Below the pieces are notes generated by a model. It was not told where the DNA came from. It made no database searches and was given only the letters and a program-made list of their open reading frames with translations. A program made the translations under genes and the position numbers. This document shows, in pieces, positions 2,428 to 24,062 of a stretch of 64,000 bases of DNA. The first letter of the stretch is position 1, and each line of letters starts with the position of its first letter. This DNA comes from Megalonaias nervosa. Its lineage: Eukaryota > Mollusca > Bivalvia > Unionida > Unionidae. Where the stretch lies: NCBI GenBank assembly GCA_016617855.1, contig JAECUM010091505.1, positions 32,068 to 96,067 on the forward strand. Reading direction: 5' to 3'.

Positions 2428-2463
2428 TCTTTTCGAGGCAGTGGAGTGGCCCTGAAAAGGGCC
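2428..2463 (-). terminator. Histone-type 3' end: stem-loop plus purine box
   Basis: On the minus strand 2463-2448 reads GGCCCTTTTCAGGGCC, a 6-bp stem with a TTTC loop identical in architecture to the metazoan histone mRNA stem-loop. The loop lies 13 nt after the stop of the 2725-2477 gene. After 12 nt comes CGAAAAGA (2435-2428), which resembles a histone downstream element that pairs with U7 snRNA. Three further copies lie in this window. Confidence 0.8.
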
Positions 2464-2476
2464 TTTGGGTTTTATG

Positions 2477-2725
2477 TTAACACCAGTTTGTTAACATAGA
2501 GGGCATCTCACTGATCTTCTTCTCTTCCTCAAAACTTTGTCTAACCTCTGGACCGTAGATGAGGACTCGCTTCAGACAACCTTGTCTTTCCACATAGGTA
2601 ATTCTTTTCCAAACGCTTGTCTCGATGATCCTAACGATTCTCCATGATGTTTTCACATACATGGGTAAGTCCGTACGGAAAAAAAATGACGATACGAAAG
2701 TAGCCGATTCAACGTTGGTCCACAT
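2477..2725 (-). CDS. Small basic protein, leftmost gene of element A
   Basis: An 82-codon frame with an ATG start, read leftward and divergent from the 2958 gene. The product is rich in Arg, Lys, Val and aromatics with a Glu/Lys patch near the C-terminus. I recognise no domain. The case for a real gene is its position: the stop is followed 13 nt later by a perfect histone-type stem-loop and purine box on the same strand. The 230-bp divergent spacer holds CCAAT-like motifs. The role is unknown; an early regulator is a guess from position only. Confidence 0.55.
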   Translation of the reverse strand: MWTNVESATFVSSFFFRTDLPMYVKTSWRIVRIIETSVWKRITYVERQGCLKRVLIYGPEVRQSFEEEKKISEMPSMLTNWC

Positions 2726-2884
2726 CTTGTGACGAGGAACAGGTGAAGGGAATGAAGTGAACCGCGTTTTTTTACAGTGGAAGACCGAACCGAAACGGAT
2801 TGAAATTGTTCACCAATCCCAACACGCGTTACAAAATTCAGTCACTTCGAAGAGTCTGTCTTCCAATCCGAAGAGAGCTACCTG

Positions 2885-2906
2885 TGACGTCACATTCCCT
2901 ATATAG
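2885..2906 (+). promoter_or_regulatory. CRE plus TATA promoter
   Basis: TGACGTCA at 2885-2892 is followed directly by CTATATAG at about 2899-2906. The TATA box lies about 52 bp upstream of the ATG at 2958, a plausible spacing for a short leader. Confidence 0.6.
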
Positions 2907-2957
2907 GTGCATTAGCGTCTGTGCGCAGTGAATCGATGCGACATTGTTTTGTGAAAC

Positions 2958-3586
2958 ATGACTGAAACTAAGAAGACGATGAATTGGGGTGCACCGGCTG
3001 TGGAGAAGAAAAGCAATGGCATAGCAGCGGCTACCAAAGTTAACACAGCGCTACTTCCTGAAGAGGTCGATTTCAACTGGGATTTAGTAGATTTTCTGTC
3101 TTCGCAAGAATTTGTTCCAGAGTACCAGTACCTTCGCCACCTTCTCCTTCTTTACCACACGTCGAGGATTTTAAACAGAGACAGAAAGAAGAATTGGAGA
3201 AATCTTTACAACAGCAGAAAGAGGCAGAACAAGCATTTCTCCTTGAACAGCAACAGCGAGAAGAAGAGACAAGAAGGAAACGACAGGAGGAAGCAGCAGA
3301 GAAGAAACAAGGTCTAGGAGAGAAGGAGAACAGTGAACCTCAAACGGTAACGGTACTCTTGGACATATTGGCCGAGTTAAGAAGTCTGAAACAAATGTAT
3401 CAGACTTCTTTATTACGACCCAAGAGAAAAAGACCTTCCCGAGCCAAACAGTCCAACCCTGTTACTACACCGGAGATACCACCCCTAGTGATTCCTACCA
3501 AATCATTGACAGGAGCAAGTCCAGAAGTAGGCCTTGGCCGTGGCAAAGGTTTAAGGCAGTTAGAGTTGATTGCTTCTCGTTCCTAA
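2958..3586 (+). pseudogene. Coiled-coil protein with acidic N-terminal segment (one frameshift)
   Basis: The reading frame opens at ATG 2958 and runs into a second frame, with the switch somewhere in about 3095-3190; the second frame ends at 3586. The N-terminal part holds an acidic, aromatic stretch (FNWDLVDFLSSQEF) resembling activation domains. It is followed by a Pro/Ser segment, a Glu/Gln/Lys-rich coiled coil, a short leucine-rich segment and a basic patch (RPKRKRPSRAK) that looks like a nuclear signal. A histone-type 3' end follows 30 nt after the stop. The layout suggests a nuclear regulator, but I know no homologue. The coiled coil recalls the genes at 22331 and 23496. Confidence 0.55.
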
Positions 3587-3616
3587 GTTTGTTCTAAGAA
3601 AAAACAAACACCCAAC

Positions 3617-3654
3617 GGTCCTTTTCAGGGCCACTCACTTCTTTCGAAAAGAGA
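3617..3654 (+). terminator. Histone-type 3' end: stem-loop plus purine box
   Basis: 3617-3632 reads GGTCCTTTTCAGGGCC (6-bp stem with one G-U pair, TTTC loop), then ACTCA. CGAAAAGAGA begins at 3645, exactly 12 nt after the stem. It sits 30 nt downstream of the stop of the 2958-3586 gene. Confidence 0.8.
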
Positions 3655-3930
3655 TAATATTCATTTTGCCAAAATCAATTAAAACTCAAAAATCCCTTGG
3701 TTAACCCTACGATATACGTGTTGTGATTGCATGAGTGTAGGTCCTTATTATTCTAAATAATCAAAACCAAGAGACACTTACGTTTTTTTCAGTCTGGTCT
3801 ATTCTGGTACAAATATTTACAATTCAATATCACAACACAACATAACACAATACTTTTTAAAAATTCATAGACTTCTTCTGTGTCTTTTTTGTCTTCTTTC
3901 ACTCTCTCTGTTTTCTGATTTTCGTCACTT
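3655..3930. other. Short intergenic spacer
   Basis: AT-rich, between the histone-type end of the 2958 gene and the convergent zinc-knuckle gene. It contains no frame or repeat that I recognise. Confidence 0.5.
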
Positions 3931-4345
3931 TCACAGTTTTTTCCTGCTCTTCTTCCTCACTTTTTCTCGTCTTCTTTTCTTTTCTGTCTTCTCTTTCTGA
4001 AAGTGTCGGGGTTCGTCATTTGCCGAGGGCACCTCTTCTTCTTCCTCCTCCTCCTGCTCCTGTTGTTTCTCCGGGCAGTCTGAAGACCAATGTCCTTTCT
4101 CTTGACAATGATAGCAGGTATCTTGACTTTTGTCTCTTCTGACACTGGTCTTGCTTTTTGACGATCTGGACATTCTGTAGCCAAATGCCCTTTCTTCTGA
4201 CAGATATAGCATGTATCTTGACTTTTATCTGGAAAGGAGGAAGAGTAGTCCGTCGGCTTGTCTGAAGAAAACTTTCTTATGACACCTTTTCAAAGCTCTA
4301 ATCAGAAGTTCGATTTGTGTGGGTTCTTCCAACGTGCTGGTCAGC
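3931..4345 (-). pseudogene. Zinc-knuckle (CCHC) protein, frameshifted
   Basis: Two CX2CX4HX4C zinc knuckles lie on the minus strand: CYICQKKGHLATEC near 4213-4172 and CYHCQEKGHWSSDC near 4115-4074. Each is preceded by the same DKSQDTC-type lead, so they are an internal duplication. They sit in different frames, so at least one frameshift lies between them, and another break lies upstream near 4280. The tail is Glu-rich then Lys/Arg-rich. CCHC knuckles usually bind single-stranded nucleic acid. A minus-strand TATA box at about 4394-4384 is its likely promoter. Confidence 0.6.
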
Positions 4346-4383
4346 TTGAGAGCGAAATGAATACTGAGAGGGAAGGCAGCAAC

Positions 4384-4420
4384 CCTTTATATATACACTG
4401 AGCCTGACATGGATATATAG
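4384..4420. promoter_or_regulatory. Divergent TATA pair between zinc-knuckle gene and PolB
   Basis: A minus-strand TATATAAAGGG (4394-4384) faces the zinc-knuckle gene. A plus-strand GGATATATAGG (4411-4421) lies about 50 bp before the PolB ATG at 4467. Confidence 0.55.
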
Positions 4421-4466
4421 GGATCCATGGCGTTTCAAATGTAGTCATTTGACTTTTGCAGTCAAG

Positions 4467-7400
4467 ATGAAACGATCGCATCATTTCGTAAAGAAAGGAG
4501 AAGAAAGTAAGAGGCAGAAACGTGATTTATCGCCTCGCACAGTAGCTGAAGTCTTTGCTCAAATTCATGGCAGCGATTTTGAAGATGACATGAGTGAACC
4601 AGAATCCAGACCCAGAGAGTCTACACCAAATCAAAGTCCATCAACACCAATAAACCCTGAAATGTACTGCCACATTCGAGAGACGGACAAACGCTCCTCT
4701 AGAAAATTTAGAACCACAGCCTACACGTACACAGTAAAGTTTAAAGATTTCGAGTCCGACGTACCGTTGGAAAAAGCAGAGGGGTTCATCACCAATGTGT
4801 GGGATTCTTTGTTAACCACACTGAAACAGAAATGTGAATCCAAAGAAGACGATCGCTTGAGACTTTCCATTCATCACGACAGTTAGAAGTCCCCCGTTCG
4901 GATCGAGTTTAGCAGCTCGGCAGAATTGACACCTTCCAAAGTGATGGACAAGATTCAACACGTACAACAATCCAACGACAAGTTTCACATCACCGACGGA
5001 AAAGCGACTCTGTTCATGAACCACGTGTCTCTTCCCCAAGGAACAGGACGTGGCAAAAAGGTGTTATTGGTAGACAATCTTCGCAGCATCAAGCGCAGCC
5101 TCGTCCGAATTAAAAACACTCAAGACAAGATGTGTTTAGCTCGTGCCATTTTGGTGGGACGAACGTATTCCAACAAGAACGACACGGCAGAATGGAAAGG
5201 AGCCTGGAAAACTATTCGAAAATCTAGCCGAGCCAAACAACAAAGAGAAGCAGAACTCCTATTACAGCAAGCGGGGCTATCCAAAGACACACCCTGTGGC
5301 ATTCCTGAAATGCAAACATTGCAAGACGTCTTGGCTCCACGCTACACCTGGAAAGTACATCCTCAAGAATTGCGCCGACCTCTGTTGTTTAGAGGCAAAA
5401 ATTTCAAAGACGGAAAATACATTCACGTCTATCATCACGATGAACATTTCGATGCCATTACCAGTATCACTGCATTCCTGGGATACAGTTATTACTGTGA
5501 GAAATGTGACTATGGCTATAACAATCGATAGCAACACAAGCATTGTGGATAGAAATGTGAGGGATATTTAGCCTCTAAGCCCTGTCTGGACCAAGGACAA
5601 GAACGAGTGCATTGCCCAGCTTGTCAGCGCACGTTTTTCAGCCCTTTCTGTTACCAACATCTAAAGACGCAAGGTTCACAGCAGAAAAGTGCTTGTCAGC
5701 TCCTGAGATTGTGCCCTACTTGTGGACAAGGCATACGTACTAATAATGCCAAGGAGCACGTATGTTCAGGAAAGAAGCGATGTCACATTTGTCACCTAAT
5801 CGTGGACTTGGAACACCAATGCTACATTCAAAACTACCTATCCAAACATGAAGAAGAAGATAATGACCAGAAGAAAGGCCATTTCATCTTTTTCGATTTC
5901 GAATGCATGCAAGAGACTGGCATTCACATTCCTAATTTCTGCGTTGCTCATCGAGCGTTTGAGAAGTGCATCCAAGAGCCTATCTTTACTCATTGCCCTC
6001 ACTGTAGCAAGATTCCTGGAGGATGTGAAAAAAAATCTTTCGGGGACCGAACACGCTAGCCGATTTCGCCCAATGGATTTTAAACCCGATTGATGAGACG
6101 TGGAGCCAAGAAGACATCGAACGTTACGGAGATTGTCATCGCTATGCTACGGTGATGGCTCACAATTTCTCGGGATATGATCGACAGTTTCTTTCGAGAT
6201 ACTATATGAAACAAAGTACTGAAGGCCCTAAAGTGACTTTGAACGGAGCCAAAATCATTTCCATGCAAGTGGGTCAAGTGCAGTTTAAAGATTCGATGAG
6301 TTAGTTGGCCATGCCTTTGAGCCGCATGCCTAAAACGTTTGGAATGGCAGAAATGACCAAAGGCTATTTTCCACACTTTTTCAATACAGAAGCCAATCAA
6401 CACGCCGTTCTACCCCATTTGCCTGAGGCTCACTACTACGACCCCGACAACATGCGTACCGAACAACGAGAAGCTTTCTACGCTTGGTACCAGACTCACG
6501 CCTCGGACCCTTTTGACTTTCAGGAAGAAATGTTAAAATATTGTCGTTCCGACGTGGACATTTTACGGCGTTGCTGTGGAAAATTTCGAGAACTGTTCAT
6601 GTAACACGGAGGGATCGATCCTTTGAAAGAAGCCTGCACCATTGCCAAAGCGTGTTCCTTAGTGTATCGCCAACGATTTATGCCCGAAAACACCCTAGCT
6701 GTCATCAGTCCTCAAACAACCAATTTTGTCAAACGTCAATACTCGGTCAAAGCCCTACGCTGGTTATATTACTTGTGTGACAAGGAGGACAAATGGATCC
6801 AACACGCTCGCAACGGAGGAGGCGAAAAAGCCGTCGGAAGGTATTCAGTAGATGGCTGGGACTTGGAAAACCCCAAGATCGTGTACGAGTTTAACGGGTT
6901 CCTATTTCACGGATGTCCTATCTGCTACCCTCAACGTAACACTAAAAATCAGTTTTTACAACGGACCATGGAAAACTTGTACCAGGCCACTTGTCAGCGA
7001 CGCTTGAAGTTAGAAGAGCAAGGATACCAAGTGGTAGAAATGTGGGAACACGAGTACGATCACCGATTGAAAACCGATCCCGAGTTTAAGCGCATCGTGG
7101 AAAGTTACAAGCTAGTGGACCCACTGAACCCAAGGGACAGTTTGTACGGAGGACGGACGAATGCCACCTGTTTGCTATACCAGACCGACGAGGAGAAAGG
7201 AGAGGAAATCAGATACTTGGACGTGTGTTCTCTGTATCCGTACGTGTGCAAATATTGTCACTTTCCCGCAGGGCACCCACAATTGCCGACGGAAAACATT
7301 GACGTGAACAATATTAGACAATACGAAGGATTGATCAAGTGCAAAGTCTTGCCTCCCACGTACTTGTACCATCCCGTTTTACCACATCATTGCCAAGGAA

Positions 7401-8545
7401 AACTGATGTTTCCCTTGTGTCGTACTTGTGCCGAAACGTGCAACCAAGACCAACCTTGTCAGCACACTCTGGAAGAACGCGCCTTGACGGGAACGTGGGT
7501 CAGCGTGGAATTGTTTAAAGCTCTGGACTTGGGATACTAACTGTTTGAAGTGTACGAAATTTACCACTTTCCCAAGACAGAAAAATACCACAAGGGCGAC
7601 GAGACTCAGAAAGGCATTTTTGCAGACTACGTGAATGCCTTTTTGAAACTAAAACAAGAAGCTAGTGGCTATCCTTCCTCCTGCCACACTCCCGAAGACC
7701 AAAAGAAATTCAAAGAGAAATACTAGCAGCAGGAGGGCATCACTTTAGACCACGTCGAGAAAAACGAAGGAAGGCGATCGTTTGCCAAAGTGATGTTAAA
7801 TTGTTTGTGGGGCAAAATGGCACAACGACCGTGTTTCCCCAAGACGGAGTATTTGACAGAACCTTCCCGCTACTTTCAGATGATTCACGACAAAACCAAA
7901 TACATGAAACACGTGGACGTCCTTCGTGAGGACTTGATCTTAGTCAATTACGAGGAAGAACTGGACTTTGTAGAAGCCGACGAATTTGGAAATGTCATCA
8001 TTGCGGCTTACGTGACAGCCCATGCTCGCTTAAAACTGTACGAAGCTTTAGAACTATTAGGAGATCGTGTGCTGTATTTTGACACGGACAGTTGCATCTA
8101 CATTGATCGCCTGGGTCAGCCTCACCCTGTCATCGAAGGAGACCGTTTAGGAGCCTGGACGGACGAGCATCCCGACCACAAGATTCTAAGTTTTGCAAGT
8201 GGAGGTCCCAAAAATTACGGCTACGAATACCGTAACCCACAAGGAGAAGTGTACACGGAGTGCAAAGTGAAAGGATTGACTCTCAATTATCGCACCAGTC
8301 AACTGGTAAACTTTGGCGTCTTGAAAGAAGCCTTGCAGTCTGGAGAGGATGGAAATTTTAAAGTGACCACCCACGAACCGCACAAGATTGTACGTTTATC
8401 CACACACCAAATCGTTAGCCGACCCTTGGAAAAAGTCTATCAAATCGTGTACCAGAAGCGAGTACGGCTTCCCAATCACTTTACTTTACCGTACGGTCAC
8501 ACTGATATTGGCGAGCATATAAAAAGGGACAACATTCAAGACTGA
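4467..8545 (+). pseudogene. polB: Protein-primed DNA polymerase B of element A (multiple breaks)
   Basis: Replicative DNA polymerase of the Polinton type, spanning about 1,360 codons. Cys/His zinc-finger pairs lie around 5490-5830. Exonuclease motifs are FDFEC (about 5896), HNFSGYD (about 6160) and YCRSDVDIL (about 6538). Polymerase motifs are the LYP-containing motif A (about 7220), KVMLNCLWGK (about 7788) and DTDS (about 8080). In-frame stops occur at 4884, 5529, 5550, 6302, 6602, 7538 and 7724, all TAG or TAA. One frameshift lies beside the 8-A run at 6028-6035. All catalytic motifs survive, so decay is recent or partly artefactual. It ends with TGA at 8543-8545. Confidence 0.9.
8518..8525 (+). 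promoter_or_regulatory. TATA box before the BIR gene
   Basis: TATAAAAA lies inside the last codons of PolB, 57 bp upstream of the ATG at 8582. The same arrangement recurs before the ATPase and core genes of this element. Confidence 0.55.
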
Positions 8546-8581
8546 TAGTTCATTGTGACTACAAACGCCAAGCGAGAAAAA

Positions 8582-9193
8582 ATGAATCCTTTCACACATC
8601 AAGTATCCAGCAAGAGTAAACTCGAGTACGATGCTGTGCCTTGCGATGGCATTGATGCCGTACGCTATGACCTTAGCGATTCAGTACCACATCATCATGG
8701 GAACTTTGCTATAACTACTACTACCATACCTACCATGGAAAGTGATGCTGTGCGTGTCAAACCTGATGGATGCGAAAGCGATGCCACTCGTTATCGCACA
8801 CCATTTCACTTTACTGGTTTTCATGGTGGATGTCATCCTAATGAAACCATGCGACTACCACCCTACGGATGTCATGTAAAACTGAGTAGACTCCTGCATA
8901 TTTCACCGTACCCTCATCGAAATGAACCTGTGAAAGACGAATATTCGTTCCCTGTGCGTTTGCCAGAATACTGTGACTTTGAAAGTCGGATCCAAACCTT
9001 CCAAGGAAAATGGCCAAAATATCTGGGAGGACCTACCCCCGAAGAATTAGCTAGAGCTAGATTTATCTACTTGGGCGAAGGGGATAAAGTCAAGTGCTTC
9101 AGTTGCGGTGTGTCACTTCACGCGTGGGAGAAGAAAGATTGCGCTTACCTGGAACATGCTCGATGGTCTCCAGTTGTCACTACCTACCTTTAG
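8582..9193 (+). CDS. BIR-domain (IAP-like) protein, C-terminus frameshifted
   Basis: ATG 8582 is chosen because a TATA box lies 57 bp upstream. The first about 120 residues are low-complexity, His/Asp/Thr-rich and unrecognised. The C-terminal part is a baculovirus IAP repeat: SRIQTFQGKWP, then ARFIYLGEGDKVKCFSCG, then LHAWEKKDCAYLEH. The CX2CX16H zinc ligands are present. The fourth ligand, a Cys expected seven residues after the His, is absent from this frame but present a few bases on in another frame, so a one-base shift at about 9168-9175 has truncated the domain. IAPs block caspases; an anti-apoptotic role is inferred from the family. Confidence 0.75.
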   Translation: MNPFTHQVSSKSKLEYDAVPCDGIDAVRYDLSDSVPHHHGNFAITTTTIPTMESDAVRVKPDGCESDATRYRTPFHFTGFHGGCHPNETMRLPPYGCHVKLSRLLHISPYPHRNEPVKDEYSFPVRLPEYCDFESRIQTFQGKWPKYLGGPTPEELARARFIYLGEGDKVKCFSCGVSLHAWEKKDCAYLEHARWSPVVTTYL

Positions 9194-9222
9194 TGGGACC
9201 TTGTCATTGAAGTGGGTCTACC

Positions 9223-9612
9223 ATGTCGTGTAAGAAACCAGCTACGGGGCTAAGAGTCAAACATTGGACAACCCCTAGACAAGTATTTAAACCCCATGTA
9301 GAAAATAATCTTCAAACATTACCAATCGAATTGCAAGAGAAGATCTACAAGGAAATTTGGCAGGGACTTGCCAGAGCCAAATCTCAATTAGTGACTGTAG
9401 AGCTTTTTTGTCGAGAAATTCACAAGAAGAAATTGACCAAAGTCAACAAGCAAGTCCGACTTCTCTGGATCAAGGGTGCGTTCGTTCTACTATTTCGCTT
9501 TAGACCATTTACATTTGAAGATTTTATTGACATTCTTGACGGTTTCCTGGAATGGCAGTGGCCAGAAATTACTCACTACGTTCATTACTTTCGATCTAGG
9601 AGAAGTGTTTGA
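9223..9612 (+). CDS. F-box-like small protein 1
   Basis: An intact 129-residue frame starting at ATG 9223. Residues about 33-47 (LPIELQEKIYKEIWQ) fit the start of an F-box (LPxEL..kI), the motif that binds SKP1 in SCF ubiquitin ligases. The rest is basic and aromatic without a known substrate-binding domain. The next gene begins with the same motif (LPVELRERIYREF), so the two are paralogues or share a domain. Viral F-box proteins commonly redirect host ubiquitination; that role is an inference here. The stop (TGA 9610-9612) is 5 bp before the next ATG. Confidence 0.55.
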   Translation: MSCKKPATGLRVKHWTTPRQVFKPHVENNLQTLPIELQEKIYKEIWQGLARAKSQLVTVELFCREIHKKKLTKVNKQVRLLWIKGAFVLLFRFRPFTFEDFIDILDGFLEWQWPEITHYVHYFRSRRSV

Positions 9613-9617
9613 CTGAC

Positions 9618-10112: not shown

Positions 10113-10312
10113 TACAACAGATTCCGTGGAAGGAAATCAATGACACTATTGAAACAGTAGAGGATTACCATTGCCTTTTACGAGAACTGTCTCCATTGAA
10201 TTGGGGTCGACGTGTAGTGTGTGTCTTAGTGACTTGCTTTCTGGGATTTCGTTTATCAGCTGATTCCTTGTGGACTCTTTACGAACAGTACCTACTACTC
10301 CAAAAAACATGA
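10088..10312 (+). CDS. Small protein related to the C-terminus of the preceding gene
   Basis: A 74-residue frame with ATG 10088. Its DYHCLLREL and VVCVLVTCFLGF blocks align with EYQNLLRYQ and VVCELVTKKFGF of the 9618 gene, so it looks like a partial duplication lacking the F-box part. Its TGA overlaps the next ATG (ATGA at 10309-10312), a compact arrangement typical of viral genes. The function is unknown. Confidence 0.45.
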   Translation: MPRPLSFVIQQIPWKEINDTIETVEDYHCLLRELSPLNWGRRVVCVLVTCFLGFRLSADSLWTLYEQYLLLQKT

Positions 10313-10575: not shown

Positions 10576-10908
10576 GTGAAAAAAGTAACTTTTAAACCAG
10601 TGTTAGTGACAGTGCCAGAAGAAGAAGAAGAAGAAGTCGTGACCGAGGAAAACCACTCTCTTCAGGACGGGACCGTGATCGACATCCCTGAAAGGCCATT
10701 CCGGGAGGACTCTTGTGTGATTGTGCCAAGGAGTGTAGAGACTCTCAGAACATTACACAGTACCCCTACGATTTCACCTCTTGATCATCACAAATGTTGT
10801 ACAGAGACTTGTTTATATTCCACTATGATCGTTTTAATGTGTCTTTTATTCATGTACTTAGCCATTTGGCTTTTATGTATTTTTGTCTTTCGTGTTGTTC
10901 ACTTTTAA
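10576..10908 (+). CDS. Single-pass membrane protein, start uncertain
   Basis: A 110-codon open frame beginning at a GTG; no in-frame ATG precedes the body, so the true start is unknown or was lost. It has an acidic Glu run near residue 16-22, a Pro/Glu-rich middle, a Cys pair (HHKCCTETC) and a strongly hydrophobic C-terminal segment of about 25 residues (about 83-107). That arrangement fits a tail-anchored membrane protein. The function is unknown. Confidence 0.45.
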   Translation: MKKVTFKPVLVTVPEEEEEEVVTEENHSLQDGTVIDIPERPFREDSCVIVPRSVETLRTLHSTPTISPLDHHKCCTETCLYSTMIVLMCLLFMYLAIWLLCIFVFRVVHF

Positions 10909-10936
10909 AGATGACAATAAACGTTTCCTGAAAAAG

Positions 10937-10944
10937 TATAAAAA
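10937..10944 (+). promoter_or_regulatory. TATA box before the packaging ATPase
   Basis: TATAAAAA lies 62 bp upstream of ATG 11006, followed by an ACT trinucleotide run just before the start codon. Confidence 0.5.
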
Positions 10945-11005
10945 CTCTTGTCTTGTCTGTCTTCGTGTCAAAAGTGACATTCCTTTCACTACTACTACTA
11001 CTATT

Positions 11006-11740
11006 ATGGCTACCTCTACTGTCTCTGCTCCATCTTCCTCCACTGTCAAAGTCATTGACGAACACGTAGATCGGACTAGTTGGGAGGTCTTGTATCTTCG
11101 CCATCCCTTTAACATGCTCATTGCCGGACCTAGCGGTTCCGGCAAAACCGAATTTGTAAAACGTTTGATCGAACATAAACATCATTTGATCGATCGTCCC
11201 CCTCAACGCATCGTGTGGTGTTACAAAGAGTGGCAATCGGCGTACAGCCTTCTGCGAGAAAGTCAAGGCGATTCCATCGTCTTTGTGGAAGGTATTCCTG
11301 GCGAGGACGACGGGATCATGTCTGACCCTAGTCAAACTCATTTGGTTATTTTTGACGACATGTTAGGAGAAGACGAAGAAGAAATTAAACTCTGGTTTAC
11401 ACGCAAAGGGCATCATCGTAATGCCAGTGTCATTTACATCACCCAAAATTTGTTTCAACAAAGTAAAGCCCATCGTACCATTAGTCTCAATGCTCATTAC
11501 GTGGTGTTGTTTAAAAGCCCTAGAGATAAATCGCAAGTACAAGTCTTAGCCAAACAGTTAAGAACGCCTTGGCTGACAAATGCGTACGACGATGCCACTC
11601 AAACTCCACACGCTTATTTACTCGTGGATTTAAAACCCACCACTCACGATTATTTGCGATTTCGTACCCATCTGTTTCACCACTGGTGCCTGTCGTGTAC
11701 ACGTCTCCTTCGTCGACTTAATCACCAAAAAAATCTATAA
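11006..11740 (+). CDS. Genome-packaging ATPase (FtsK/HerA type), intact
   Basis: A 244-residue P-loop ATPase that drives DNA into the capsid in Polintons and other double-jelly-roll viruses. Walker A GPSGSGKT is at about residues 41-48, Walker B HLVIFDDML at about 112-120, and the sensor-like ITQNLF at about 145-150. The first ATG downstream of the TATA box at 10937 was chosen as start; the frame is open further upstream but without a better start. The stop codon TAA overlaps the TATA box of the next gene. Confidence 0.88.
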   Translation: MATSTVSAPSSSTVKVIDEHVDRTSWEVLYLRHPFNMLIAGPSGSGKTEFVKRLIEHKHHLIDRPPQRIVWCYKEWQSAYSLLRESQGDSIVFVEGIPGEDDGIMSDPSQTHLVIFDDMLGEDEEEIKLWFTRKGHHRNASVIYITQNLFQQSKAHRTISLNAHYVVLFKSPRDKSQVQVLAKQLRTPWLTNAYDDATQTPHAYLLVDLKPTTHDYLRFRTHLFHHWCLSCTRLLRRLNHQKNL

Positions 11741-13640: not shown

Positions 13641-14333
13641 ATGGAAGGACGAAAACTAGCTTTAGTCCCTTACAAACGATGGATGGAATACCATCGTTGG
13701 CAAGAATAATGAACCCCACATTTACCTACCAATCCTCATTTGACCGAGATGTCCCAGTTACAACACGAATTGCAATCGTTGATGGATCACAGCGATTTGT
13801 CAGAAACGGAAAAATAGCAACGGTACGGTCAGTTGTTGGAACGACTGAAACTCTTTCACCAAAAAGCTTTAGACGAAACAGCTCAACCCACTCTGAAAGA
13901 TTTTAAGGCCTTGATGAAAAGTTCACCACCACTACTACGACCACTACCACTGCCAGTAGTCAAGACAGAGGCAGCCGCACGGTTGCCTGAGGAAGAAGAG
14001 GCAAGAGAAGTCTTTCAAACACCGTCAGCAGCTCCCATCCCTAGTAGGATTGCAGCGTCCTTGTTGACCCCTTCCCCTACACCGCAACGAGAAGAACTTA
14101 AAGCTTGGGTTAAAAAGATGATGTGCACTCCTCCTTCGACAGAAGTGAAAAAGAGAGAAGGGAAAGCAGAAGTGAAAAAAGAAAAGAAGACCAAAGCCAT
14201 TCCATTACCACCACCACCACCACTACCTTCCACTTCTACACCCGTGGCACATCGGACACGTAAAACCGTTTCTAAACCACCCCCTCGTCTCATTCAGAGT
14301 AGCATCAGTAAAGATTGGATCACTTATCAAAAC
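13641..14333 (+). pseudogene. PY-like protein / N-terminal extension of integrase
   Basis: ATG 13641 opens MEGRKLALVPYKRWMEYH, matching the short VPY-containing start of the PY protein that usually precedes integrase in Polintons. Stops TAA 13707, TGA 13710 and TAG 13815 interrupt it, all in the same frame. It then continues through a Leu-rich helix and a long Pro/Lys/Glu-rich linker straight into the integrase without a further stop. PY and integrase may therefore be fused here, or the PY stop may have been lost. Confidence 0.55.
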
Positions 14334-15441
14334 ATGGAGAAGGTGTTAGCCAACATTTACTACGATCCATCCCATTGCGCAGGTTACGGAGGAGTTCAGA
14401 AATTGTATCGAGGTGCCAAAACTCGACTGAAAAGTATCCGTTTACCTCATGTGCAACGCTGGTTACAAGAACAAGCCACGTACACCTTACACAAGCCCAT
14501 TCGACGAAAATTTTCCAGAAGTCGCACCCAAGTAGAGGGTATCGATCACCAATGGCAAGCCGATTTAGCCGATGTCTCTCATTTAGCCACCTACAATCGT
14601 GGCTACAAATATTTGTTTTGTGTCATCGACGTCTTTTTCAAATTTGCTTGGGTCGTACCATTGACTTCCAGTTCGAGCAGTGAGTTAGTGCGAGCCCTGC
14701 AACTGGTGTTGAAACAAAGTGGTCGTCACCCTCTTCGATGGCAAACTGACAAAGGCACCGAATTTCTAAACCAAGCTTTCCAAAAAGAATTGAAGAAACG
14801 TGACATTCATTTTTTCACCACCGAGAATCCCGAAACCAAAGCCAGCATTGTGGAACGTTTTCAACGTACCTTGAAAGAACGCATGTGGAAATCTTTTACG
14901 CATCAACACACTCTCAAGTACATCGACGTCTTGCCACACTCGTCCAATCGTACAATCAATCTTACCATCGGAGCATAGGGTGTGCCCCCAAGAAGTGACT
15001 CCTGACAACGAAGTGACCGTCTTCGAGCGCCTGTTTGGTCCGTCCCCGACAGTGCCTGTCCCCAAGAAAGGTGAAGTGTTGGCATCAGGAGATTGGGTAA
15101 CCATTGGCAAAACCAAACGCACTTTCGACAAAGGTTACTTATCCAATTGGACCACCGAATTGTTTCGTGTCACCGAACGTGTGCGTGGCCGTCATCCTCC
15201 CGTCTATAAATTAGAAGACATGAACGGAGAAGTGTTAAAAGGAACGTTTTACTTGCCTGAGTTACAACGTGTGACCAAAAAAGAAGACGACGTGTACGAG
15301 ATCGAAAGCATACTCGATCGAAGAACCCGAAAAGTAGGAAAGAAATGTGTCAAAGAAGTCAAAGTACGTTGGAAAGGATATCCTCCCAGTTTTGACTCTT
15401 GGATCGACGCTTCGCAACTCATTGACTATAAAAAGAAGTGA
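14334..15441 (+). pseudogene. int: DDE integrase with C-terminal chromodomain (frameshifted)
   Basis: Retrovirus-like integrase that inserts the element. The N-terminal block YYDPSHCAGYGGVQKLY is typical of Polinton integrases. The catalytic triad is HQWQADLADVS (about 14550), RWQTDKGTEF (about 14745) and ASIVERFQRTLKER (about 14850). The C-terminus carries a chromodomain (YEIESILDRR, then VRWKGYPPSFDSWI). Two frame changes lie between about 14930 and 14985, just before the SH3/chromodomain part, so the current product would stop at 14978. ATG 14334 is internal to an open frame, so the true start may be upstream. Confidence 0.88.
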
Positions 15442-15446
15442 CCATC

Positions 15447-15851
15447 ATGCCCTTCAACACAACCTCAGCTACTGCAGTGACCACTCCGTCGCCCAGTTCT
15501 TCTCTGCAAGATCTACAAAAGCAACCCTTGTGGGTGTGGTGTGGAGAACGTGTGCCTAAAACGCAAATCGTCTTTTTCTGCCAAATCTTTGTGGTGTATT
15601 GTGTCATCGGTGCTGCCATTGCCAATTTGAGTTTGCAACAAGGAGAAAAACAATTGTGGACTATTTTACTTAGCAGTTGCATTGGTTACCTTCTTCCCAA
15701 TCTGTCTCTGAAATATTCCTCTAACGGAAACAACAACAACAACGGGAGTCTTGCGTCCAACGTTAGTCACCAATCCAATCACAACAATCCTCTTTTAGAC
15801 ACTCCTCTGACTTCCAGTGACTCCTCAGACACTAGAACTGTGGAATTATGA
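15447..15851 (+). CDS. Conserved two-helix membrane protein of Polintons
   Basis: A 134-residue product from ATG 15447. After a Ser/Thr/Pro-rich start comes RVPKTQIVFFCQIFVVY, a first membrane helix, then a short loop and a second helix (WTILLSSCIGYLLPN), followed by an Asn/Ser-rich tail. This pattern (VPK.qIVFF, ...LLSSCIGYLLPN) is a recurrent uncharacterised membrane protein of Polinton-type elements. The TGA stop overlaps the ATG of the minor capsid gene (ATGA at 15848). Confidence 0.65.
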   Translation: MPFNTTSATAVTTPSPSSSLQDLQKQPLWVWCGERVPKTQIVFFCQIFVVYCVIGAAIANLSLQQGEKQLWTILLSSCIGYLLPNLSLKYSSNGNNNNNGSLASNVSHQSNHNNPLLDTPLTSSDSSDTRTVEL

Positions 15852-16744
15852 ACAACCAATTTTACTTAACGTTACCCAGTGACAGTTCCATGGAGGTGTT
15901 TCCCAATAACACTTTGTGCTGTTTCTCGGCCAGATTACCTCAAGCCATCCAATTGGATCACGAAGCCCATTGGGAAGTAGCTTTAGTGGAAATGATTCAC
16001 CCTACACAAATCAAAAACATCGTCGAAAATGAAAACTCTTTTACGGTAGAAGTTTATGACGAACAAGTGCAACAAGCCATGGATGAACGCGCTATTACAG
16101 CTGACTTTATGAAATCACAAGACCCCAAAACTAAACGAACCACTTATCTTTTGAAAATTCCTGCGGGCTATTATTTTAGTGGTCAACATTTGGTGAACAC
16201 CATTCCTGAGAGGTTCAATTTCATGTTTGGTAAAGCCTTGGAGAAAGCCAGAAGAAGTGTCACGATCGAGTACCACAAAATAGCTCGTCGCCTAATGATG
16301 AAATTTTCAGAGGACAAAGTATTGGCCATTACATTTTGTCCTGAATTGTATGACATTTTGGGTGGAGACCCCAAGTTGATCAAGATGAGAAACGAAATAC
16401 CAGCTATGACCGATAACTTGGATTTTGCGAAACATTTTCGATTCCCTGTAGAAATGAACCAAGGACTGAATTTGATTTTTGTGTACTCCGATGTGGTGGA
16501 GTACAACGTAGTGGGACACACCTCCGTACCGTTACTGCGTGTCATTCCTTTCAAAGTGGATTCTGCCACGGCTGCTAACGAGGAAAGTGGAAACACCTAT
16601 CACGTTCACCGCGAATTTGTACATCCTCACTATTTGCCAGTCAGTAAGTCTTATTTCGACACTGTCAACATTACGATAAAAGGAGATCTGGGACAAAATA
16701 TTCCATTCACCAAAGGGAAAGTCACAGTAAAACTCCATTTTTGA
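15848..16744 (+). CDS. Minor capsid (penton-like) protein, intact
   Basis: A 298-residue protein, intact. The N-terminal FYLTLPSDSSMEVFPNNT followed by WEVALVEMIHPTQ is the hallmark of the Polinton minor capsid protein, a single jelly-roll that forms the pentameric vertices. A GYYFSGQHLVNTI block and C-terminal YFDTVNITIKGDLGQ also fit. Its ATG overlaps the preceding stop. The pVI-like and major capsid genes follow in the usual virion block. Confidence 0.85.
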   Translation: MNNQFYLTLPSDSSMEVFPNNTLCCFSARLPQAIQLDHEAHWEVALVEMIHPTQIKNIVENENSFTVEVYDEQVQQAMDERAITADFMKSQDPKTKRTTYLLKIPAGYYFSGQHLVNTIPERFNFMFGKALEKARRSVTIEYHKIARRLMMKFSEDKVLAITFCPELYDILGGDPKLIKMRNEIPAMTDNLDFAKHFRFPVEMNQGLNLIFVYSDVVEYNVVGHTSVPLLRVIPFKVDSATAANEESGNTYHVHREFVHPHYLPVSKSYFDTVNITIKGDLGQNIPFTKGKVTVKLHF

Positions 16745-16772
16745 AAACGATTACTCTAACTTTTTGTCAGTC

Positions 16773-17213: not shown

Positions 17214-17223
17214 GAAAAAGAAA

Positions 17224-18543: not shown

Positions 18544-18548
18544 ACACA

Positions 18549-19055
18549 ATGGAAGACTCCTATCCCTCATTGAACGATAGAGAATCTTTGGACATGGAAT
18601 GGGAGGATAGCGTGAAAGCAGAACCCCAAGACCAAGACAAAGAGGACGAGGTAGTAGTCAAGTCCAGATGGCCAGAACAAGAACAACATTTAGTGTCCTG
18701 TTTTGCTAAACACCTAGCGAATACAATTACGGAATTGTCCAAGAAATATTGTTATGGATGTCAGAACGGTCATCCCAGTCAAATTCAACACGATAAATGT
18801 ATGATGATGAGTCAAGAAGAAAAATTGGACGAGTATCTGGACGAAGCTTGGAGTCTCATCTCAGAAGAAGCAGTGTTGCATGAATGGTATAAAGGCTTGC
18901 GTGATCTTTCCTGCCCTCCATTGACTACTCTAGAGATCTATAGCATCGAAGCTCTCTTAGCCCAGAGTGCGGAGACAAGGCGAAGAAACGGCTACTTGAC
19001 AGAGCGTTTCAAACAAAAAGTCAGAATTGAATTGATGACTTATCATTACCTGTGA
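18549..19055 (+). CDS. Cys-rich conserved Polinton protein
   Basis: A 168-residue frame starting 5 bp after the major capsid stop. After an acidic N-terminus it has YCYGCQNGHPSQIQHDKC, a C..C...HPSQ..H..C cluster that I recognise as recurrent in Polinton proteins next to capsid or protease genes and that may bind zinc. The remainder is helical, with Leu/Glu-rich segments. The biochemical role is unknown. It lies directly upstream of the protease. Confidence 0.6.
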   Translation: MEDSYPSLNDRESLDMEWEDSVKAEPQDQDKEDEVVVKSRWPEQEQHLVSCFAKHLANTITELSKKYCYGCQNGHPSQIQHDKCMMMSQEEKLDEYLDEAWSLISEEAVLHEWYKGLRDLSCPPLTTLEIYSIEALLAQSAETRRRNGYLTERFKQKVRIELMTYHYL

Positions 19056-19076
19056 AAAAAACAACAAAACAAAAAA

Positions 19077-19628
19077 ATGGATACCTAGGAACTTTATTAC
19101 CTTTTGAACAATAGTTCGTATACTGCTTCTTGGAATCCTGTCGTGTGCGCTAAAGATGAACTACCTCATCGCAAACCTCAAGACCATCAAGCTTATGTCA
19201 TCAACACGGACGAAAGTCATCTTCCAGGGACTCACTGGGTTGCCGTCTGCTTCCCTCAAGAGAATTGTGTGGAATATTTTGATCCGTATGGATTACCTCC
19301 TTTGGAAGACGATATCATTGACTTTATGAGAAGAAATGCCCAGACGACACGATACAATAATGTGAAATTGCAAGGCACAGATTCCATGGTGTGTGGACAA
19401 TATTGTGTGTATTTTCTTCATCAACGCAGTCTTGAATATCCTTTAGAACATTTAGTGACTTATTTTGATTGTCACTCTTCTAGAAATGATGAGAAAGTAG
19501 ATCGATGGTTTTGTGACCATTATAGTTATCTTTTGTCTTTAGCTAGGAAACGTAGTGTACATCAATGGCCTCATAACTTCCATCAATGGAAATCTCACAT
19601 GACTTCACAACGTTGTCAACCTTGTTAA
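19077..19628 (+). pseudogene. Adenain-like cysteine protease (early in-frame TAG)
   Basis: Ulp1/adenain-fold protease that would mature capsid proteins. Residues GTHWVAVCF (His), YFDPYGLPP (Asp/Asn position) and SMVCGQYCVYFL (oxyanion and nucleophile Cys) give the catalytic set. ATG 19077 is followed by TAG at codon 4 (19086-19088), after which the frame is open to TAA 19628. Translation could only begin downstream at a non-ATG or after read-through. It is the last gene of the structural block. Confidence 0.8.
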
Positions 19629-21924
19629 AAATAATTTGTTTGATGTTACTTGTGACTTATGACTTGTTACTTGTTGGTTGAATGAAAAATGTTGTGTTTT
19701 GGAAAAATGTGTCGTTTGTTTTCAAAAAGCACTGTGAATATATGCTCTTTGACTTTCTCTCTATCCCTCACCATGACATTCGCTATCATAGCTTTCCGAC
19801 ACTAAAACCGAGTAGGGATGTTTTCTGTCGCGTCCGCGTTTGAACCATATAAAGCGGGTTGTTCTCCAACATAGAAATCAGCAAACATACTGCACACAGG
19901 CATGTGGACAACAAACCATTCACAAACTTTAAGCATCACCATGCAGCATGCAGCATGAACGCACACACCCAACTAATAGCATGAGTTTAAAAAAAAAAAA
20001 ACCAAAAAAAAAAACCATATTTTTCTTGTCCTTTTTATTAAAATATAACTTTCCCAATGCAAATGTATAACTAACACCCCCTCCTACCAACTTATCTTCC
20101 ACACCTCCTCCTACCAACTTATCTCCCACACCTTCCCCATCCCCACGGACAAGCGGCTGCACACAGACGTACAGTCAACAACCCAGTCACAAACCTTAAG
20201 CATGACCATACAACATGGAACGCACAAACCCAACTAACAGCATGTGATTACAATTATTATTTAAAAATTTCTTTTCTCTCTATTACAATACAAATGTATA
20301 ACTAACACTCCCCCTAACACCTCGAATCGGACAAGCACCAATGCAAGGGGCGGTCCAGGAAGATCTACCTGCTGCCCCACAAACCCCCACCCTCACGGAC
20401 AAGCGGCACAATCCGGACAAACATCAAGGTAAGGGGTATGCCAGGTAGCCCTACCTGCTGCCCCACAAAACCCCCCTCCCCATCCGGACAAGCGCCCAGG
20501 CAGCGACAACACCCATCTTCATCCGGACAAGCAAGATAGAACAACAAAAATAAAGAAGAAACCAACCCAAGATGGAAAATAAAGAAGCAATATACGACAA
20601 CAAAATTAAAGAAGAAACAATCTAAGAAGAAAAATAAAAGAATACAGACAACACGCAGCAAAAAGGAAAATAAAGAAGACACAAACTATACACCACGGGA
20701 AGCTATCGTCAACCAATAGACAGAAACAGCAAAATGTGCAGAGGAAAGATGTGCATTGCCACGCAATCGCAATTAGCCACTTCAGAAGACGCTCATTGCC
20801 ACCCATCAACAACTTGCCAATTGAAAAGATCAATAACTTGCCAATTCGAAAAGATGTAAATGACTACACAACACAAATTGCCAGACAAACATCAAAGCAA
20901 GGGGCAGTCCAGGCCGCACTGCCTGCTGCCCCACAAACCCCCTACCAACCCCACCGGACAAGCGTAACATACCCCTGACAAGCTTACGGGCACCTCCGGA
21001 CAAGCATAGCATACCCCGGACAAGCATACGGACACCACCGGACAAGCATGCCATACTCCGGACAAGCGTACGGACAATAATAAAGGCAAGTTGCGGTCCA
21101 GGGGACCCTACCTGCTGCCTTACAAACCCCCATCCCCACCGGACAAACATAGCATACCCAGGCACGGACAAACTCAAAGCCAAGGGGCAGTCCAGGAAGC
21201 TCTACCTGCTGCCCCACAAACCCCAACCAACCCCACCGGACAAGCATAACATACCCCGCACAAGCGTACGGACACCACCGGACAAGCATAGCATACCCCG
21301 CACAAGCGTGCGGACACCACCGGACAAGTGTAGCGCACCACCGAACAAGCGTTCGGACGCTATCGGACAAGCATTTTATATCCCGGACAAGCGTACGGAT
21401 AATAACAAAGGCAAGTGGCGGTCCAGGGAGGTCTACCTGCCGCCACACAAACCCCCATTCCCACCGAACAAGCATAGCATACCCAGGTACAGACAAACAC
21501 AAGCAAGGGGCAGTCCAGGAAGCTTCACCTGCTGCTCCACAAAACCCTACCGGACAAACACAGCGAATCCATATCGAGCAGCAATTAATCCTCGCAAGAA
21601 GGAGGTATTGCAGAGCACAGCTCGACATGGACAACCAAGGGTCTTCACTTTGGCTGAGGAAGACCCGACATAAACCAACCTTGATCCTTTCGACCCCTCA
21701 TCAAAAAAAAATTTTAAAAAAATTCTCCAATTACGGATAATTATTAGGAGGGCACACCTCCGTCCAGACTGGCAAAGAATTTCGGAAAACGGACACGTAC
21801 ACTAAGTACACAAAATTCAAATTTAATCTATACCCAACACACCAAATTCACAAAGCTTGATAAATTACACAGGTGACTTACACAATACTGGCATAGGGCA
21901 GTCCACTAGCACAACTGGACCACA
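19629..21924 (+). repeat. Repeat-rich non-coding region of element A
   Basis: About 2.3 kb with no supported gene. Two diverged copies of a about 100-bp block (AACCTTAAGCAT...CCCAACTAA type) lie at about 19890-19990 and 20158-20255, each followed by an A/T-rich tract. From about 20325 to 21560 a GGACAAGC-based array is interspersed at least seven times with an AAGG-GGCAGTCCAGG...CTGCTGCCCCACAAA block. Long reading frames here on both strands are translations of the repeats. Confidence 0.7.
19815..19856 (+). promoter_or_regulatory. Promoter-like block with TATA
   Basis: GATGTTTTC, then CGTCCGCG, then CATATAAAGC is closely echoed at 22966-23006 (GAATGTTTTCC, CACGTCCG, ATATAAAG). Part of it recurs at about 24665-24685. 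The upstream CACTAAAACCG (19800) also recurs at 21927 and, as CATTAAAACCG, at 23036. It is a repeated regulatory module; no gene is seen directly downstream of this copy. Confidence 0.45.
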
Positions 21925-22330
21925 TTTGACACTAAAACCGGTCCCGCCTTGTGGTTGGTTTTGGGTGTGCCTTGGATGGCTGTTCCCTTGGTCTTTTCGT
22001 GCCGTTTCTGCGCTGCCTCCCTTCCGGATCTCTTTCCGCCTCCGCCTCGTTACGGACGTGTCTGCTTGCTGCTGGGTATATGATCTGAAAGCAAACTAGG
22101 GGGCTATGATGGCACCATATTCATATCCCCCAGGAGGACGTGAGGGCACAATACTCACACCTCGAAGGGCCCAGCCTAGGGCTCTGAGAGGCAGTGGTGG
22201 CACCATACCCACACCTCCGAAGGCCCAGACTAGGGCTATAACCAGTCGCGAAGCACAGAGTGCATATGCGATTATAATCCTTCAGTCAGACTTCAGTCAG
22301 TCTGACCATCCACTGTTGACTCGTTAACCT

Positions 22331-22690
22331 ATGAACATGCCTTCCAGACTAGCCCAGCTGAACGAAGCTTACGTCAGTTTACATCGTGTCAGGCTAAACC
22401 TGATACCGAAGCCTGAAGAGATAGAGAATGTCAGGATGTTATCCATAGCCCAAGACCTAATAGAAGAAGTCTTTAGAGAGGAAATTAAGAAAGAACAAGA
22501 AGAATGGACTGAGAAATACAGACTTAGAGAAGAACAACTGCAGCAACAACAGCAGCAGCAGCAAGAACCAGACAGAGGTTTTGTGGACTGCCGTGTGGAC
22601 ACCAAAGAATTCTCTTTCTCTTTCTGCAGAAGCAGGCCGTATCGTATAGGAAAGCCTGCCGCCAGACGGGGACGCAATCTTAGACAGTAA
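22331..22690 (+). CDS. Small coiled-coil protein with histone-type 3' end (unit 1)
   Basis: A 119-residue frame from ATG 22331. It has helical Leu-rich and Glu-rich segments, a Gln run (about residues 73-80) and a basic C-terminus (RIGKPAARRGRNLRQ). A TATAAT-type box (TTATAATCC) lies about 57 bp upstream. The stop is followed 39 nt later by a histone-type stem-loop and purine box. The whole promoter-gene-3' end unit is duplicated at 23034-24063. I know no homologue; a nuclear early protein is a guess. Confidence 0.55.
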   Translation: MNMPSRLAQLNEAYVSLHRVRLNLIPKPEEIENVRMLSIAQDLIEEVFREEIKKEQEEWTEKYRLREEQLQQQQQQQQEPDRGFVDCRVDTKEFSFSFCRSRPYRIGKPAARRGRNLRQ

Positions 22691-22729
22691 AAAAAAGATT
22701 GCCATTACTCCCGTTAACAAAAAAAAAAC

Positions 22730-22766
22730 AGCCCCTTTCAGGGCTACCCAATGCTCTCGAAAAGAC
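22730..22766 (+). terminator. Histone-type 3' end: stem-loop plus purine box
   Basis: 22730-22745 reads AGCCCCTTTCAGGGCT: five base pairs plus one C-A mismatch, with a TTTC loop. It is preceded by an A-rich run and followed by ACCCA, the usual histone flank. CGAAAAGAC starts at 22758, 12 nt after the stem. Confidence 0.8.
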
Positions 22767-22965
22767 ATACTCATTCAATTGCCAAAAAAATATTTGTGTG
22801 TTTCTATGTTAAAAAAATAGAAGTGTGTCTATAAGCACTTCGTTTCTCTGTCTTGTCTGATAGTGTATGTCTGTGTTTGTAAATCAAAAAGTTAACGTGT
22901 TTCTTTTAGGTCCGCGCGTTCCATGGGATGGTAATAATGATATAGTAAATTTTGGTATTAGGGAA

Positions 22966-23046
22966 TGTTTTCCTTCACGTCCGTGCTCCACGAATATAAA
23001 GCCAAGCGCACGTCAGTCTGGCTGGACTAAATGTGACATTAAAACC
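22966..23046 (+). promoter_or_regulatory. Promoter-like block of unit 2
   Basis: GAATGTTTTCC and CACGTCCG precede ATATAAAG at about 22999-23006. CATTAAAACCG follows at about 23036. The same order of motifs occurs at 19800-19856. The next coding start, ATG 23496, is 490 bp away, with a closer TATAAT (about 23438) in between, so two promoters or a long leader are possible. Confidence 0.4.
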
Positions 23047-23495
23047 GACCTAGCCGTTAGGTCGGGGCGCGTGGTGGCGGGTGTTAGTGTGCCCTGTGTG
23101 GCTGTCCCCGGGGCGCTTCCGTGGTGTTTTTGCGCGGCCTTTTCTGGGTTCCGTCTCCTCCTTTCCTCGCCAGCTGTGTGGATGTAGACTGTGTCAAAGG
23201 TCAGAGGTGAATCGGAAAAGCTTTGGTAAAGGCCCAGCACTTGGGCTAAAAGCCCAGCACGGGGCTAAGTGCCTCTCTAGGAAAGCAATGTCGCCCAGCC
23301 TGGGGCGGCATCCAGCCGAGGCCGAGTGCCTCCCTAGAGGGGCTATTGCCCAGCCTTGGGCCTGGAGTGCCCCAATAGGGGCCTCTGGTCCAGCCCGGGA
23401 CCTACAGTCGTAAAGCACATGGTGCATAAACGACTATAATCCCTTAAGTCAAGTCAGTCTGGCTACCCAACGTTGAGCTGTTAACGTGAAAGAAA

Positions 23496-24062
23496 ATGAG
23501 AAGCAGAACTGCAAAATTGTTAGAACTCAAAATGCACCTGGAGTATGCCAGGCGTTTATTGAAAGAGCTAGCCATGGAAGCTAATGAAGAAGAAGCCAGG
23601 ATAAAGGAGGAGGAGGAAGAGAAGAAAAAGAAAGAAGAGGAGAAAGAAAAAAAGCAAGGGATCTTGCCTCACCTCATCATGAGCCCTGTGTGTGAGGTCA
23701 AGCCTGAGGTGAGGACACCTCCACAGCCAGTACGACGTCAGCTGCAGCCACAACCACAACCACTAACAGCAGTACAACTTATCCACGGTTGTGGTATAGG
23801 AAAAGGACGGAAGCCTTCACTATCCCAGAGACGGAAGATTGGGAGAGTGAAGCCAGTCAACCTCCCTCTGCACTCCCAAGAACAAACATCAATTGGGAGC
23901 AGGACTGGAGCCGTCGTTGCGTCTGTGGGGTTAGACCTGGGAGGTGCCACCATTAGCCAGGTGCAATTGAGTTCAACGAAAAAAACAGCCCTTCTCAGGG
24001 CTAGCCAGATCTCTAGAAAAGAGAGACTATTCAATTTGCCAATTGGTGTGAATGTAGAGTAG
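23496..24062 (+). CDS. Coiled-coil protein with histone-type 3' signal inside the frame (unit 2)
   Basis: A 188-codon frame from ATG 23496: a Leu-rich helix, a long Glu/Lys coiled coil, a Pro/Gln-rich segment, then a basic middle (GKGRKPSLSQRRKIGRVKP). Upstream motifs (ACTATAATCCC, GTTAAC) align with those before the 22331 gene. The histone-type stem-loop (23987-24002) lies inside the last 25 codons instead of after the stop. The original stop was therefore probably lost or shifted, and a processed mRNA would end without a stop codon. Confidence 0.5.
   Translation: MRSRTAKLLELKMHLEYARRLLKELAMEANEEEARIKEEEEEKKKKEEEKEKKQGILPHLIMSPVCEVKPEVRTPPQPVRRQLQPQPQPLTAVQLIHGCGIGKGRKPSLSQRRKIGRVKPVNLPLHSQEQTSIGSRTGAVVASVGLDLGGATISQVQLSSTKKTALLRASQISRKERLFNLPIGVNVE
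23987..24022 (+). terminator. Histone-type 3' end: stem-loop plus purine box
   Basis: AGCCCTTCTCAGGGCT (23987-24002) forms a perfect 6-bp stem with a TCTC loop. AGAAAAGAGAG begins at 24015, again 12 nt after the stem, followed by TTTGCC as in the other copies. Confidence 0.75.

Follow-up and report, generated by a model that had tools for sequence, protein, structure and literature searches.

Histone-type 3′ end signals on four small non-histone genes of a Polinton-type element in the bivalve Megalonaias nervosa

The 3′ end of a histone mRNA is formed by a 16-nucleotide (nt) stem-loop of six pairs, in which the second pair is G-C and the loop follows the pattern U-N-U-N. In this pathway the U7 small nuclear ribonucleoprotein (snRNP) is described as cleaving histone pre-mRNA 4–5 nt past the stem-loop, and the core AAAGAG of a downstream element as pairing with CUCUUU of U7 (PMC7026596). 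In a bivalve, histone stem-loops have been reported with purine elements beside only some of them and in variable placement (PMC6210712), and six Rfam histone 3′ untranslated region stem-loops have been counted in 8,300 Polinton-like and virophage genomes (PMC12220804). The present analysis concerns a stretch of 64,000 nt from the bivalve Megalonaias nervosa (contig JAECUM010091505.1, positions 32,068 to 96,067; hereafter the window), in which a Polinton-type element spanning approximately 2.2–24.7 kb carries four small non-histone genes, each followed on its sense strand by a module with the anatomy of a histone 3′ end. The stop-to-stem gaps are 13, 30, 39, and 30 nt for genes 1 to 4, respectively, and the modules are as follows.

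2410..2470, minus strand: 3′ module of gene 1, stem-loop 2463–2448 (GGCCCT-TTTC-AGGGCC), CA 5–6 nt past the stem, AAAAGA at 14 nt; 38.0 bits with RF00032
3610..3670, plus strand: 3′ module of gene 2, stem-loop 3617–3632, CA 4–5 nt past the stem, AAAAGA at 14 nt; 29.9 bits with RF00032
22723..22783, plus strand: 3′ module of gene 3, stem-loop 22730–22745 (five of six pairs, C.A at the loop), CA 4–5 nt past the stem, AAAAGA at 14 nt; 19.7 bits with RF00032
23980..24040, plus strand: 3′ module of gene 4, stem-loop 23987–24002, CA 4–5 nt past the stem, AAAAGA at 14 nt; 20.1 bits with RF00032

The four 16-nt sites had been listed in an earlier note on this DNA, and all of their coordinates and strands were confirmed in the window, as were loops of either TTTC or TCTC, which read TTTC, TTTC, TTTC, and TCTC at sites 1 to 4. 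Stems of 6 bp, also claimed there, are present in full at three of the four sites (1, 2, and 4, with one G.U pair in site 2), while site 3 forms five; at all four, the second pair is G-C and the first and third loop positions are U. The first stem pair changes from G-C to A-U between genes, with both sides altered, and is A-U in genes 3 and 4. On the sense strand, a CA dinucleotide begins at nt 4 past the stem in three sites and at nt 5 in the other. The earlier claim of a 12-nt gap between stem and purine box was right as to the constancy of the spacing, which holds for all four sites, and has to be amended as to its length: AAAAGA itself starts exactly 14 nt past the stem, and 12 nt is the distance to the CG or AG dinucleotide. 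When the left and right ends of the element are compared, the best similarity between them is that of the 3′ modules themselves, at 76–78% identity over 59–85 nt. Downstream of the purine box, the modules also share an AT-rich stretch ending in TTGCC (3657–3670, 22770–22783, 24027–24040, and 2412–2421), which is 87% conserved among gene-2 copies. Folding z-scores of the stem-loops are modest, ranging from −1.7 to −2.9, and covariation over the four window sites is too thin by itself to prove the stem, since 93 of 500 shuffles reach its score.

With the Rfam Histone3 model (RF00032), site 1 aligned to the full 46 model positions and scored 38.0 bits against a gathering score of 34. The E values of sites 2, 4, and 3 were 1.6e-4, 0.73, and 1 for a search space of 64 kb times 4,227 families; divided by 4,227, the single-family values for sites 1, 2, 4, and 3 become approximately 4e-11, 4e-8, 2e-4, and 2e-4. 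A consensus scan, requiring a G-C second pair, a loop of T-H-T-H, at least five of six pairs, and AAAGA 8–20 nt downstream, found exactly the four sites in the element, where 400 first-order Markov sequences of equal length gave a mean of 0.05 and a maximum of 1; its rules followed the histone consensus, and its tolerances were chosen with the four sites already known. The same scan found no site in the rest of the window (~41 kb) and none in seven further contigs (L001–L007). A separate, looser scan recovered three of the four sites (site 3 failed), whereas 60 Markov sequences yielded 0.3 on average and at most 3.

The four genes flank the core genes of the element, two on each side:

2477..2809, minus strand: gene 1, open frame of 110 codons from stop to stop, its stop lying 13 nt ahead of the stem-loop; without a Pfam match and with relatives in 17 of the 30 loci compared
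2810..2957, no strand: region between the divergent genes 1 and 2, with a palindromic CRE-like TGACGTCA at 2885 and a palindromic TATA CTATATAG at 2899
2958..3586, plus strand: gene 2, frame broken in this copy (2958–3317 and 3194–3586), stop 30 nt before its stem-loop
22331..22690, plus strand: gene 3, one open frame of 119 amino acids, stop 39 nt before its stem-loop; 12 relatives
23496..23956, plus strand: gene 4, frame broken in this copy, C-terminal part kept in the relative P0133, stop at 23954–23956, 30 nt before its stem-loop

No Pfam family, histones included, was matched above cut-off by genes 1–4, and a Pfam histone search of nine members of the gene-3 family likewise found none, which bears out the earlier statement that no histone is encoded here. 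The 12 relatives of gene 3 share 70–88% identity over the aligned part, and its structural model, at a predicted local distance difference test score (pLDDT) of 66, is a low-confidence one in which helices are followed by a basic tail of low confidence. For gene 4, the uninterrupted frame of the window (23496–24062) reads through its own stem-loop, and the C-terminal sequence conserved in P0133, its single relative, sits in another frame. Because that frame stops 30 nt upstream of the stem-loop, gene 4 normally ends before it, and the window copy has lost the frame. A single duplicated gene as the source of all four modules was considered and set aside, as BLASTP among genes 2 (second part only), 3, and 4 returned nothing significant, gene 1 being left out of the comparison; genes 3 and 4 do share an N-terminal look (M-SR-AKL), which was not counted as homology. 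Four E2F-like sites occur in the window, none of them adjoining genes 1–4.

Recurrence of the signal was examined in the window's own assembly (2.19 Gb, 54,709 contigs), where 66 of 75 scored Histone3 matches exceeded the cut-off; among 14 control genomes, one gave a Histone3 match and none gave a match over the cut-off. Thirty loci, each of up to ~3 kb around the top-scoring matches, were then compared with the element (29 are distinct, L017 and L018 being one locus taken twice). Relatives of genes 1–4 are encoded in 22 of the 30, and L029 additionally matches element DNA at 3541–5247, which brings the count to 23. Five more match end DNA only, namely L011 and L032 (left end and right-hand array), L022 and L033 (array and gene-1 module), and L035 (module alone), and the remaining two, L027 and L030, match nothing of the element. 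Histone motifs, used with no positive control from this genome, were found in none of the 30. In L011, L032, and L035, short frames with many basic residues and no match to genes 1–4 lie ahead of the stem-loops; they may represent additional types of gene that share this 3′ end. A different arrangement is seen in L024 (91–1506), where the divergent partner of gene 1 is gene 3 and not gene 2, with a piece of gene 4 beyond; because of this pairing, a gene and its module seem to travel together as a unit.

Since the loci had been chosen for high Histone3 scores, retention was assessed on non-seed copies, that is, gene copies in a fetched locus other than the one that seeded the Histone3 match, under the lenient requirement that a site agree with the sequence of site 1 at no fewer than 11 of its 16 positions. 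All 14 non-seed genes whose match ends within 15 residues of the gene end possess a site 30–50 nt past the match; six pairs form in eight of these sites, five in five, and four in one (L026), and the purine box lies at an offset of 14 in 13 and of 15 in the other. Among four more non-seed copies of gene 1, whose match ends earlier, L038 has a full stem with a box at 17. In total, a stem of at least five pairs is present in 15 of 18 non-seed copies (14 of 17 distinct ones), and 14 of these (13 distinct) also have the box. The search of related elements for the signal, which the earlier note had proposed, showed that both stem and box persist in most of these copies. Compared with the window, eight non-seed gene-2 copies have an identity of 0.92 in the stem-loop and 0.98 in the box (values given with no significance test). 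Their two spacers each stand at 0.82, the final 120 coding bases at 0.80, the 18 nt past the box at 0.87, and the next 100 nt at 0.69. The stem-loop and box are therefore the best conserved parts in these copies, a pattern that would be expected of a selected RNA signal. The sequence, structure, position, and spacing of the modules, their recurrence, and their preferential conservation in genome copies are all directly seen.

As had been proposed, the modules have the anatomy of an SLBP/U7 processing signal: they lie on the sense strand 13–39 nt past the stop in the window, and they are retained in most of the other copies of these genes that were compared within the genome. Because the modules fit both the published cleavage position and the core of the U7 pairing, processing by the host's SLBP and U7 is the most likely explanation, and we are fairly confident that the small non-histone genes of this Polinton-type family would make mRNAs processed in that way. 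Under such a scheme, the stem-loop would be the binding site of host SLBP, and the AAAAGA box would base-pair with the U7 snRNP of the host; cleavage after the CA, 4–6 nt past the stem, would leave an mRNA that ends in the stem-loop and has no poly(A). The likely benefit would be expression and translation during host DNA replication, independent of poly(A) signals; we infer such coupling to S phase because it is a known property of the histone pathway. A broader proposition, which we favor with some reserve, is that a family present at no fewer than 20 loci has placed unrelated genes under the histone 3′ pathway (lacking poly(A) and timed to replication), that these may be the first case in an animal genome of protein-coding genes other than those of histones with ends made by SLBP and U7, and that elements, not histone genes, would supply most of the top-scoring stem-loops.

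Several observations weigh against this interpretation. In site 3 (22730–22745), the loop-closing pair is C.A and the structure folds with a 6-nt loop, and sites 2, 4, and 3 score below the RF00032 gathering score (29.9, 20.1, and 19.7 bits), such that the Rfam covariance search proposed in the earlier note was passed by site 1 alone. The 75 matches scored in the genome come from 423,121 candidates and do not include the window's own 38-bit site, so they represent a sample, and the choice of loci by Histone3 score introduces a selection bias. Moreover, the stem is nearly palindromic and its antisense reaches 12 of 16, which renders the criterion of 11 of 16 strand-blind; for this reason, the orientation of the modules rests on the purine box. 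Among the non-seed copies, L026 has four pairs and a box, gene 1 of L020 has a full stem and no AAAGA, gene 1 of L037 has four pairs and no AAAGA, and gene 1 of L023 has no site. An ATTAAA occurs 92 nt past the stop of gene 2, and the lack of AATAAA within 300 nt of the gene end in all four terminal genes is weak evidence, as only one of 11 core genes has it. The window copy is also decayed, with DNA polymerase B (PolB), gene 2, and gene 4 among its broken genes. Finally, neither the four genes nor the signal were found in four distant Polinton-type contigs (L001–L004), three of which are only 8–12 kb long.

Other explanations can be weighed against the same evidence. Stem-loop transcripts could conceivably serve as decoys that titrate SLBP or U7 from host histone mRNAs, for example limiting chromatinization of the element, with the encoded proteins being secondary. 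The many stem-loop copies in the genome (75 scored matches) would suit such a role, but it would require neither stop-to-stem gaps of 13–39 nt nor a purine box at a fixed distance, and gene 3 is conserved as a protein in its 12 relatives, as is gene 4 in P0133, from which it follows that the reading frames matter; we consider the decoy improbable. Equally improbable is a DNA-level element, in which a captured histone 3′ region has lost its RNA role and persists as a repeated site for terminal recombination, replication, or packaging. The modules do lie towards both ends of the element, and the order of cassettes varies among copies, as with gene 1 and gene 3 in L024. However, the module is 3′ of the gene in all four cases in the window, and most non-seed copies are still followed by the stem. 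The most conserved parts are the stem-loop and the U7 box instead of the spacers, and, from one gene to another, both members of the first pair change together, G-C becoming A-U, all of which make this account unlikely.

It might also be supposed that the signal is a relic of an old histone-type ancestor and that present transcripts use poly(A) sites further downstream. The ATTAAA beyond gene 2, the broken state of the window copy, and the module that is incomplete or missing in four of the 18 non-seed copies are all compatible with such decay, yet the stem-loop and box outdo their surroundings in conservation across the eight gene-2 copies, and little weight is therefore given to a relic. Least probable by far is a chance resemblance. 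Stray matches do occur, as in IMG/VR, where an 18-base pattern had three exact matches (none of them recognized by Rfam at an E of 0.1 or below) and one match at 21.3 bits fell inside a 784-codon frame; against these stand four sites where 0.05 are expected and the recurrence of the signal at the same genes across the genome, and chance is refuted by these counts. Processing by host SLBP and U7 thus remains the preferred reading.

The carrier of the four genes was described in the earlier note as a Polinton, and its gene set is indeed that of Polintons and adintoviruses, including PolB pieces, a BIR protein, an A32-type ATPase, an rve integrase with a chromodomain, a probable penton, a major capsid protein (MCP), and an adenain-type protease, although with no terminal inverted repeats detected and with broken genes. 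Its remaining features are as follows.

4887..8545, plus strand: DNA polymerase B region in several frames; Pfam DNA_pol_B_2 in 6605–7540, a sub-cut-off match in 7727–8545, and none in 4887–6059
8555..9193, plus strand: BIR (inhibitor of apoptosis) domain protein; Pfam BIR at 4.1e-18 for 8549–9193
10883..11740, plus strand: A32-type packaging ATPase; Pfam Pox_A32 at 1.1e-7 for 10862–11740
13833..15441, plus strand: rve integrase with a C-terminal chromodomain, in two frames; Pfam rve at 3.4e-11 and Chromo at 1.3e-9
15848..16744, plus strand: probable penton/minor capsid protein, assigned by position, with no Pfam match; tblastn relatives in L001–L004, directly 5′ of the MCP in L001–L003
17203..18543, plus strand: MCP; 391 relatives and a beta-rich AlphaFold model with a pLDDT of 74.7
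19104..19628, plus strand: adenain-type protease; Pfam Peptidase_C5 at 1.2e-4, barely over cut-off
24097..24651, plus strand: tandem array at the right end; comparable DNA lies close to stem-loops in several genome loci

Among the best 120 of the 391 MCP relatives, identity extends down to 42%, and those that are named come from the bivalves Mercenaria, Ostrea, Crassostrea, and Saccostrea at 42–51% identity, with one exception, a metagenome-assembled genome (MAG) of a symbiont. A double jelly roll is suggested for the MCP by these relatives, and a capsid profile had no match among the sequences of the PDB. Terminal inverted repeats and target-site duplications are characteristic of Polintons/Mavericks. 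An end-to-end comparison of the element detected no inverted repeat, save for the oppositely oriented 3′ modules, and the ends may have been lost in the decayed copy; because these repeats were not found and several genes are broken, the window copy is regarded as a decayed provirus-like insertion. TATAAAA-type motifs recur close to the starts of several core genes (8518, 10071, 10937, 11736, 12503, and 15427). Of the four palindromic TGACGTCA sites in the window, three belong to the left end (2261–2344 and 2885–2906), two of them within an inverted repeat and one beside CTATATAG.

Beyond this family, the four distant Polinton-type contigs mentioned above are GTDB contigs placed inside bacterial MAGs, and they probably come from animal hosts. 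Weak Histone3 model matches in L003 and L004 skip the stem, and because L001–L004 lack both genes 1–4 and the signal, histone-type 3′ ends seem not to be general to Polintons. Searches of IMG/VR with the MCP protein, an MCP alignment, a PolB piece, a gene-3 alignment, and an integrase alignment gave no confirmed relative, and the capsid protein had no match in a phage collection. The three pattern matches and the single scored match in IMG/VR were rejected as real signals and taken as chance, the surrounding frames being judged by eye as phage genes, and another stem-loop pattern found no match there. The window contains a second virus-like element at 43071–56618, which encodes an A32-like ATPase, an rve integrase, a helicase-type AAA protein, an HNH endonuclease, and fiber-like and double-jelly-roll-like proteins, and which has no histone-type stem-loop. 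Long hairpins were also noted outside the Polinton-type element, at 522–644 and 50766–50911 of the window.

If the preferred reading is true, the histone mRNA pathway can be borrowed by a mobile, virus-like element for unrelated genes, and the family would provide a natural test of what SLBP/U7 processing requires. It would also hint at the way in which Polintons coordinate their expression with DNA replication in the host, and would explain why viral transcripts of this kind could escape RNA data sets selected for poly(A).

Placed beside replication-dependent histone mRNAs, the modules agree in their six-pair stem (five at one site), a 4-nt loop with U at positions 1 and 3, a CA at the expected cleavage position, an AAAAGA box, and proximity to the stop, insofar as these ends are described in PMC7026596 and PMC6303110. 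They differ in that the genes are non-histone and the carrier virus-like, genes 3 and 4 have A-U as the first pair, and two sites score only ~20 bits. The element, in turn, resembles the Polintons/Mavericks and adintoviruses of animals in its PolB, rve integrase with chromodomain, A32-type ATPase, adenain-type protease, MCP, and probable penton, and departs from them in carrying, towards its ends, four additional small genes that have histone-type 3′ ends, and in that no terminal inverted repeats were detected. No case of histone stem-loops or SLBP in connection with Polintons, transposons, viruses, or non-histone genes was found described in the literature, as judged by titles and abstracts, which agrees with the earlier note's belief that no described Polinton has this signal; that belief requires qualification only in that PMC12220804 counts its six matches without comment. 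Those matches belong to the same Rfam family and are given as a bare count, with hosts, genes, and the purine box undiscussed in the accompanying portion of the text. The novelty in the element of M. nervosa lies in the carrier and in the non-histone nature of the genes, the RNA-processing signal itself being known.

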